NCBI RefSeq assembly: GCF_014489075.1
Contig: NZ_JACTGR010000003.1
Location: forward strand, 324,501 to 388,500
Source of the DNA: Sphingomonas sp. JC676
GTDB lineage: Bacteria; Pseudomonadota; Alphaproteobacteria; Sphingomonadales; Sphingomonadaceae
DNA: 64,000 bases
Direction of reading: 5' to 3'
Part shown: piece after piece, positions 51,141-52,532 of the stretch
Numbering within the stretch: position 1 is the stretch's first letter
Layout of the letters: each line of letters opens with the position of its first letter
Program-made: the position numbers and the translations under genes
The notes under the pieces: model-generated
The model's input: the letters and a program-made list of their open reading frames with translations, nothing else
What the model was told of the DNA's origin: nothing
The model's database searches: none

Positions 51141-51548
51141 TCAGGTGCAAAGCGCGTTGCGCAGCCCTTCGATCTTAGTCACGCGGTTCTGCTCGGCGCT
51201 CCACCAGATACGGGCGATCTGGACACAGGGCACGCCCTTGCGCTGCCATTGCGCATAGTGCGACGGTGGACTGACCTTGAAACCCTGCGCGAGCAGTTCG
51301 GCGATCACGGCCGATTCCGGCGTCCCGACAGGAAAACGGGCACGCGCGCGATCCGTCAGCGCCCCGGTTGCCGCCTCATAGGTCTGGGGAAGGCCACGCA
51401 GCAGCGGCGGCTCGGATGCCTCGCGTGGCTCGGGAAACAGCAGATTGCCGACGAGCACGACGACCAGACCCAGCACGACCCCGCCGATCACGGTGCGCAC
51501 CCAGCGAATGCGGGGTCGCGAGCTATCTGTCTGTGCGGACGTTTCCAT
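51141..51548 (-). CDS. Hypothetical membrane-anchored protein
   Basis: The 135-residue product has one membrane segment near the N-terminus (VIGGVVLGLVVVLVGNLLF) after a basic start (SSRPRIRWVRT). The remainder is a soluble domain with RFPVGTPESAVIAELLAQGF, PPSHYAQWQRKGVPCVQIA and WWSAEQNRVTKIEGLRNALCT. It is probably a periplasmic domain anchored in the inner membrane. No family is recognised. It is the first gene downstream of the structured region at 51563-51865, but a terminator-like hairpin separates them. Confidence 0.65.
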   Translation of the reverse strand: METSAQTDSSRPRIRWVRTVIGGVVLGLVVVLVGNLLFPEPREASEPPLLRGLPQTYEAATGALTDRARARFPVGTPESAVIAELLAQGFKVSPPSHYAQWQRKGVPCVQIARIWWSAEQNRVTKIEGLRNALCT

Positions 51549-51562
51549 CGGCGCGCCATAGC

Positions 51563-51610
51563 AGAAAATGAAAGAGGCCGCCGGGCCCCGTCAGGGTACC
51601 CGGCGACCTC
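51563..51610 (-). terminator. Strong terminator-like hairpin
   Basis: On the minus strand GAGGTCGCCGGGTACCC pairs with GGGGCCCGGCGGCCTC, allowing one G-U pair and a two-base bulge. A T-rich run (TTTCATTTTC) follows. It lies just before the next minus-strand gene at 51548. Confidence 0.75.
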
Positions 51611-51745
51611 CGACATGGTCAGCGGCCGGAAGCTCCAGCAGGGGAGACCATGCGGACCGCTTTGCTGCCAGCGGGCGAGCGTTGGTTGGAGGAGGATACC
51701 TCCCGCTCACCATACGGACGGAGGGCTTCCGTCCGCGCTTTCAGC

Positions 51746-51802
51746 TCAGCGGCGCGTCTCCCGAACGAACTGAACCGACCCCATTGCTGAACCATGAGAC
51801 AT
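51746..51802 (-). CDS. 18-codon short ORF with exceptional ribosome-binding site
   Basis: The frame encodes MSHGSAMGSVQFVRETRR, then TGA. Its ATG follows AAAGGAGGTGATCC, which is complementary to the entire 3' end of 16S rRNA (14 bases), with three to seven bases of spacing. Such a long match is very unusual for a normal gene. The peptide could be a leader peptide or a functional small protein, or the site could bind ribosomes for regulation. An overlapping longer GTG frame (51619-51810) is possible but less likely. Confidence 0.4.
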   Translation of the reverse strand: MSHGSAMGSVQFVRETRR

Positions 51803-51856
51803 CGGATCACCTCCTTTCGCTAGTTGAAGAACGAGCGTGCGTCACTGCACGAACGA

Positions 51857-51885
51857 ATCATGAATCACCCTGAGTCGCAGAACAA
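51857..51885 (-). promoter_or_regulatory. Possible promoter of the structured transcript
   Basis: On the minus strand TTGTTC is followed after 17 bases by CATGAT, giving a weak -35/-10 pair. A start near 51849 would place the short ORF about 47 bases downstream. The sequence lies in an AT-rich patch. Confidence 0.3.
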
Positions 51886-51977
51886 GTCTTGTAATGTTTT
51901 TTTATATGAGCGATTCTGGAAGTCTTGGGGATGAGCGAAGCGTAACGCCGCCTCCGGTTCCTGGAATTCCCCGATTT

Positions 51978-52532
51978 TCAGCCGCGGCAGTCTTCCACGA
52001 CGCGCAGCGTCTCGGCCCAGGCAGGCACCACCAGCTCCTGCAGGCCGTCCACCTCGACCACGAACCGCCCGCGGCTGAAGCCGATCGCGTCGAGCAACGG
52101 ATCGCGCGCACCAAGCTCGACCGCGAGATAGGGAGGCGTACCGCCGGTCGGCAGCGCCGCGAGCCGGCGCTCCAGGCTGGTCGTGCGGATTCTGTATCCG
52201 CCGCCGCCCTCGCCCCGGCGCGAGAGGTAGATGCGCCCGCGTGCGCGGTCGCAGCGCAACGTCAGCTCGGCATCCTGACCCGCACGTCCGAACAGCGCGA
52301 TGCTGCCGCGCTCGTCCTGGCGATAGGCCCAGGTGCCCGGCGTCAGCGGCCAGTCGCGCCAGTCCTCGGAACGGGGCATCGGCAGACCAGCCGTCCCATA
52401 GGGCAAGGTTTCCGTCACGGTTACGGGCGCGGGCGCAGCGGGCGCCGGCACCACCTTGGCGGTGGTCGAGCATCCGCCCAGCGCGAGCGCGGCTGACGAA
52501 ACAAGGCTGGCGAGCACTAGGATGCGGCGCAT
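51978..52532 (-). CDS. Hypothetical lipoprotein
   Basis: This 184-residue protein starts at the ATG at 52532 with a lipoprotein signal MRRILVLASLVSSAALALGGC, in which the cysteine is residue 21. The mature part has a proline/valine linker (VVPAPAAPAPVTVTE), then DWPLTPGTWAYRQDERGSIALFGRAGQDAELTLRCDRARGRIYLSRRG and LQELVVPAWAETLRVVEDCRG. It is likely to be on the periplasmic face of a membrane. I recognise no named family. It lies upstream of the structured region and ends in TGA. Confidence 0.7.
   Translation of the reverse strand: MRRILVLASLVSSAALALGGCSTTAKVVPAPAAPAPVTVTETLPYGTAGLPMPRSEDWRDWPLTPGTWAYRQDERGSIALFGRAGQDAELTLRCDRARGRIYLSRRGEGGGGYRIRTTSLERRLAALPTGGTPPYLAVELGARDPLLDAIGFSRGRFVVEVDGLQELVVPAWAETLRVVEDCRG

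Follow-up and report, generated by a model that had tools for sequence, protein, structure and literature searches.

The window, as we call the 64,000-nucleotide stretch of Sphingomonas sp. JC676 DNA analysed here, carries on its minus strand an RNA that, judged from its sequence, is a divergent branch of the CC2171 family (RF01867) and not a new kind of RNA. We name this form type A and the form closer to RF01867 type B. Comparison with relatives supports this family relation together with a 15-base complement of the 16S rRNA tail, an open reading frame (ORF) whose length appears to be selected, and a long-range helix, a:c. The new points are the extent of the 16S-tail complement, the length-locked ORF and a helix that a ribosome would exclude. 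With moderate confidence, we read the locus as a stand-alone type-A transcript of about 290 nt, structured and translated, in which a ribosome entering the RNA and helix a:c would exclude one another.

A first-pass annotation had pointed to a structured transcript at 51549–51885, a range close to our own estimate, in which the RNA would run from about 51851 to about 51560 on the minus strand. It had reported a 14-base match to the 3′ end of 16S rRNA, and AAAGGAGGTGATCC is indeed present at 51804–51817 on the minus strand, with no second exact copy anywhere in the window or the 4.87-Mb genome and none in 100 shuffles of the window; the match itself is one base longer than reported (15 bases, GAAAGGAGGTGATCC). 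The 18-codon ORF that it described was also recovered, one base past AAAGGAGGTGATCC. The strong structure that it described is borne out by folding: a 331-base stretch has a z-score of −4.87, none of 100 shuffles being equally stable, and the terminator stem-loop with its U-rich tail reaches −34.2 kcal/mol. A lack of conservation of the Shine–Dalgarno (SD) sequence or the ORF, and a lack of compensatory changes, had been named beforehand among the observations that could refute the claim; relatives show both the conservation and such changes. An origin as a 16S or ITS artefact was rejected; the Rfam scan of the window returned no family at its gathering score and the tRNA search of the window found none. 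The features of the locus are collected in Table 1.

Table 1. Features of the type-A RNA locus, with positions counted from the first base of the window.
Feature	Position	Strand	Basis or remark
−35-like element CTTGTT	51881–51886	minus	Sequence reading; motif with 18-base spacing in type-A members; overlaps palindrome ACAAGNCTTGT
−10-like element CATGAT	51857–51862	minus	Sequence reading and type-A conservation
5′ hairpin CGTGCAGTGACGCACG	51836–51851	minus	Folds before the SD; probably forms the 5′ terminus of the RNA
Extended Shine–Dalgarno GAAAGGAGGTGATCC	51804–51818	minus	15-base complement of the 16S rRNA 3′ tail
18-codon ORF MSHGSAMGSVQFVRETRR, stop TGA	51746–51802	minus	Stop position conserved in Sphingomonas relatives
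Strand a of the long-range helix, CATGGTTCAGC (codons 3–6)	51786–51796	minus	Pairs with c
Strand b, CATGGTC, which may compete locally with a and accompanies the Sphingomonas form	51646–51652	minus	
Strand c of the long-range helix, GCTGACCATG, beside the terminator	51614–51623	minus	Pairs with a
Terminator stem-loop, then TTTCATTTTCT	51574–51611	minus	Folding and pair changes on both sides

Relation to the CC2171 family

The covariance model of RF01867 aligns over its full length (model positions 1–159 of 159; 32.8 bits, E 2.5e-5, local Rfam scan by E-value over 461 bases), and the long-range helix of CC2171, which joins the start region to the segment preceding the terminal hairpin, is found as well. 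Since this full-length match lies below the gathering score of 75 bits, Rfam's rule does not make the window RNA a member, and it is to be regarded as a divergent branch. Among other type-A loci, those of two further genera reach 46.7 and 41.3 bits, and another reaches 34.6 bits. Six type-B relatives score from 63.3 to 73 bits, also below the gathering score, among them a copy in the same genome (G000:C29:502097-502247; 67.8 bits) with the 24-codon ORF MSHCHLPHAADFLSMTSTAGVRLA. At E ≤ 0.01, the model matched 69 of 289 alphaproteobacterial genomes, nine of these above the cut-off; because it also matched an unrelated control genome (Deinobacterium chartae), the weakest of these matches are untrustworthy.

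In a BLAST search with a 341-base query, 35 of the 37 genomes of the genus, counting the window's own, showed related DNA; in one of them this is the 3′ block only, at a contig end, and the two genomes lacking a match are 84% and 81% complete. Of 396 genomes of the order, 271 contain a 24-base SD-and-start pattern, with one mismatch allowed, and none contains its reversed form; by hand count, the carriers are 271 of the 313 genomes inside the window's family and none of the 83 outside it in the same order. A further hand count over 99 genomes of the family gave 78 with CATGG (type A) and 10 with CATTG (type B), four of the carriers, again including the window's own genome, having both. The search for related stretches yielded at least 119, and removal of near-identical members by a 180-base key left 137 of type A, 45 of type B and 13 of type C. 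Many members were fetched by a pattern containing the SD, the start and codons 2–3, so these are conserved by construction outside the Sphingomonas set; the Rfam-model loci were likewise chosen by a model containing the same SD and start segment, and since the sequences are related, member counts are not independent events.

Among the matches listed, five loci (L072, L095, L101, L135 and L137, three of them from Azospirillum) have the same SD and ATGTCTCATGGA start in front of a protein of 57–59 residues that looks like a secreted small protein, and have neither the type-A nor the type-B helix. Also among the matches listed, a record labelled Candidatus Kuenenia, a planctomycete, holds a type-B copy (L089) like those of the alphaproteobacterial loci L201 and L204, and is probably a misbinned contig.

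Reading frame and extended Shine–Dalgarno sequence

All 33 Sphingomonas relatives (the window's own copy was kept outside this set, under L001) have an in-frame stop at codon 19, written as TAA in 19, TGA in nine and TAG in five, and the other two frames stop anywhere at codons 6–60 and 19–63, with two lacking a stop. ORFs within two codons of 18 make up 138 of 141 in the type-A set (the 137 type-A members and four MSHGP members of type C), and ORFs within two codons of 24 make up 40 of 47 in the type-B set (the 45 type-B members, L193 and L208). In the 30 Rfam-model loci, every ORF has 18–26 codons, starts with ATG (16) or GTG (14) and ends with TGA (17), TAA (nine) or TAG (four), the stops of the other frames being scattered. 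ORF length looks selected, as for translation of a fixed length.

The peptide behaves differently from its length. Variation in the Sphingomonas set is lowest at codon position 3 (mean minor frequency 0.037 versus 0.086 and 0.078 for the other two), and therefore the peptide sequence itself seems unconstrained; codons 2–6 never vary, and codons 7, 8, 11, 15 and 18 change amino acid freely. A codon-position test did not reveal selection on the amino acid sequence, and since that test is simple and the ORF short, weak selection on the peptide is possible. We consider it unlikely that the locus is a small-protein gene whose product is the 18-residue peptide, made from a very strong ribosome-binding site between structured flanking regions. 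The selected start, stop position and ORF length would suit such a gene, as would the N-terminal MSH common in types A and B, but the third codon positions and the five free codons speak against it, and the N-terminal codons that are conserved are those that also form strand a. Of the unusual small-protein gene entertained in the first-pass annotation, what remains is the selected length; selection on the peptide has left no sign. Because ORF length, but not protein sequence, looks preserved, an RNA that is filed as non-coding is probably translated.

In the limited collection of literature searched, as far as its text was available, CC2171 RNA figures as a list entry only, and no description of an ORF or of a full 16S-tail match in the family was found. 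The available text of the Rfam 15 paper gives one additional covarying pair for CC2171, and that of a study on Mesorhizobium huakuii gives RNA-seq ends at 5178945–5179159 for its CC2171 RNA, MH_s33 (PMC5596092). Ribosome profiling in Caulobacter (Schrader et al. 2014, PMC4117421) is reported to have found two earlier-predicted ncRNAs translated, their names not being given in the portion available.

The RNA segment GAAAGGAGGUGAUCC complements the 16S end over 15 bases. This match was read against the 16S ends of related records: a 40-base end closing with CTGGATCACCTCCTTTCT (also given as GGCTGGATCACCTCCTTTCT) is matched at 100% identity by records of Novosphingobium and Sphingobium and by a plasmid record of Sphingomonas paeninsulae, and pattern searches for the 16S end of the window's own genome returned the window's own site or nothing. 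The unpaired tail past helix 45 of 16S rRNA is GGAUCACCUCCUUUCU, so the match spans the tail except for its last base. The calculated energy of the SD:16S duplex is −29.9 kcal/mol, versus −12.3 for a plain AAGGAGG context. The SD GAAAGGAGGTGATCC is invariant in all 34 aligned Sphingomonas sequences, and an SD is present in all 30 Rfam-model loci, whose model itself contains the segment. Very long SD duplexes have been reported as hindering initiation in E. coli. For S. aureus, extended start-proximal SDs are described, in the available part of one study, as a normal feature (PMC13009471).

A duplex of this calculated strength, and an SD recurring throughout the Rfam-model loci (by a model containing it), would also be consistent with a non-coding RNA that captures 30S subunits by pairing with the full tail, without productive translation. 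We find this improbable, slightly more so than the small-protein gene: a selected ORF length, three interchangeable stops and ATG or GTG starts would be unexpected in an untranslated RNA. The ribosome-binding small RNA suggested at first thus holds as far as a structured RNA of the CC2171 family is concerned, its binding to ribosomes being suggested by complementarity.

Very unlikely, in our judgment, is a sponge for sRNAs with an anti-SD motif (such as the suhB/alpha-r8 family). The window's own genome does have four suhB (RF00519) matches at E ≤ 0.001, two of them above the cut-off (G000 C1, C31, C32), and the model for such a role would be CrfA of Caulobacter, described in the accessible text as a sponge of the alpha-r8 siblings SisA-D, which carry UUUCCUCCCU (PMC12559287). 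Against it, two related loci give calculated energies of −12.6 and −14.6 kcal/mol for pairing with the UUUCCUCCCU motif versus −30.1 for the 16S tail, a script search did not find the motif in the own-genome copy, and such pairing has no need of the GAUCC half of the SD.

How exposed the SD is may be read from folding. For the window RNA, the calculation has the SD core GGAGGUGA mostly paired (unpaired probability 0.01–0.11) with the U-rich 3′ tail, so the SD is possibly not freely exposed. The terminator tail ACCUCUUUUC was considered as a dedicated anti-SD and rejected: its CCUC part belongs to the terminator stem, so that such a role is not needed. Sequestration by the ORF interior was also rejected as a general feature, exact complements showing no overall excess (16 of 172 members versus 31.1 expected; 172 of 211 were kept after leaving out identical members and, as for the energies, five type-C loci with ORFs of more than 40 residues). 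SD:ORF-interior energies lie below those of shuffles (mean z −1.1 in type A, −1.15 in B, −1.42 in C and −1.56 in other Rfam loci), with p = 0.067 against shuffles for this pairing in the window RNA. An exact SD complement within the ORF is found in eight of 14 members with ATCCA before the start versus two of 158 others; it is a possibility that sequestration is limited to that branch.

Long-range helix and proposed switch

On the comparison of sequences between branches, helix a:c is kept by compensatory changes. Its type-A form, CATGGTT/GACCATG, is found in 127 members and its type-B form, CATTGTC/GACAATG, in 34; distant loci have CATTGCC/GGCAATG, ATGAGATT/AATCTCAT, CATGAAT/ATTCATG and CGAGATC/GATCTCG. 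A full 7-pair partner of a is present in 178 of 192 members (three of 195 were skipped), versus 50.4 expected with shuffled a. By our own reading of the 30 Rfam-model loci, made without a shuffle control, the partner lies just before the terminator in 21, is weak or misplaced in seven and is missing in two. Calculated probabilities in the window RNA are 0.84–0.95 for five of the six pairs and 0.48 for the sixth, and the mean over the Sphingomonas set is 0.30. Since a:c, strand c included, is invariant in the 34-sequence Sphingomonas alignment, that alignment tells nothing about the helix there.

Taken as a whole, the structure has 95.3% of cells paired in that alignment, versus 92.0 in shuffles, and 48 cells changed on both sides versus 18.6, nearly all from the terminator; a slide by three columns still yields 40 such cells. 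The number of further pair types in the 34 sequences was not unusual, being reached by 68 of 500 shuffles. In the terminator, 10 of the 16 counted pairs changed on both sides among these sequences. A hairpin of at least five pairs precedes the SD in all 34, with 31 distinct stems (counted without a shuffle control). Of 150 members of types A and C, 53 have the strand-b motif CATGG[TC] at a distance of 10–60 bases ahead of c; competition of b with a for c was rejected, as folding gives a mean b:c probability of only 0.05.

Returning to our preferred reading of a structured and translated RNA, free 30S subunits would dock through the 15-pair duplex and then initiate at the AUG. By geometry, a ribosome on codons 1–6 should be incompatible with helix a:c; translation would therefore open the RNA, and the folded RNA would resist translation. 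We infer a switch between a:c and the ribosome in which the act of translating and not the peptide would matter, most likely by coupling the RNA fold, its lifetime or its availability for pairing to the supply of initiating ribosomes. Candidate outputs are RNA lifetime, release of c and 30S titration. More tentatively, and with greater doubt than confidence, we hypothesize that CC2171 may be a ribosome-gated RNA device and not a non-coding sRNA: its near-maximal 16S complement, together with an ORF locked in length and free in sequence, would let the fold report how many initiating 30S subunits are available, and the effector would be the ribosome and not the peptide. An ORF selected for length in a family classed as non-coding, behind an SD that takes up nearly all of the 16S tail, would offer a compact natural system to ask what very long SD duplexes do, and a test of translation acting as a switch without the peptide mattering. 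The family is little studied yet widespread (69 of 289 alphaproteobacterial genomes, with type A in 78 of 99 of the window's family).

Genomic context and comparison with known systems

For the weak promoter proposed in the first-pass annotation, a fitting −35/−10 layout, CTTGTT-18-CATGAT, is present; a generic sigma-70 scan gave no match at the locus. As that scan found none, the promoter is the weaker part of the description and draws on conservation, the −35/−10 motif with 18-base spacing occurring in 49 of 135 type-A members. The palindrome ACAAGNCTTGT (51882–51892), which overlaps the −35-like element, could be a regulator site; of 135 type-A members, 85 have ACAAGNCTTG, whereas all 45 of type B lack it. 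GANTC is a CcrM-type methylation site. Three such sites lie in the promoter region (51855–51876), and the corresponding stretch has at least one in 88 of 135 type-A versus nine of 45 type-B members, as raw counts without a chance control.

Upstream, on the same strand, lies an orphan conserved neighbor, a lipoprotein-like gene of 184 residues (51978–52532), found by tblastn in 127 of 137 type-A loci. The downstream gene of 135 residues (51141–51548) was found in one of the 137, the window's own; Pfam had no match for either. A leader with a regulatory peptide, as first suggested, or an attenuator of this downstream gene, is scarcely credible: the gene is on the same strand about 25 bases past the terminator stem, but a conserved linkage to a regulated gene is lacking. 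Because the upstream gene is kept and the downstream one is not, the RNA appears to be a stable independent locus and not the leader of its downstream neighbor.

Compared with CC2171 of Caulobacter crescentus, the window RNA has in common GAAAGGAGGUGAUCC followed by xUG at equal spacing, UCUCAU at codons 2–3, and a long-range helix from the region of codons 2–3 to the segment before the terminal hairpin. It differs in being longer, with an extra 5′ hairpin, in having CAUGGU in the helix where CC2171 has CAUUGU, and in an ORF of 18 codons against about 24; the Rfam entry for CC2171 is classed as sRNA, without an ORF. Dual-function small RNAs such as SgrS/SgrT and SR1 are likewise small RNAs with a short frame. 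In SgrS/SgrT, SR1 and similar cases, the peptide has a reported role, whereas the peptide of the window RNA bears no sign of sequence selection. Finally, CrfA and the alpha-r8 RNAs SisA-D of Caulobacter, in the available text, resemble the window RNA in SD-like and anti-SD-like pairing among alphaproteobacterial small RNAs (PMC12559287); in contrast to them, the window RNA complements the whole 16S tail, far past the CCUCC core, and does so in front of an ORF.
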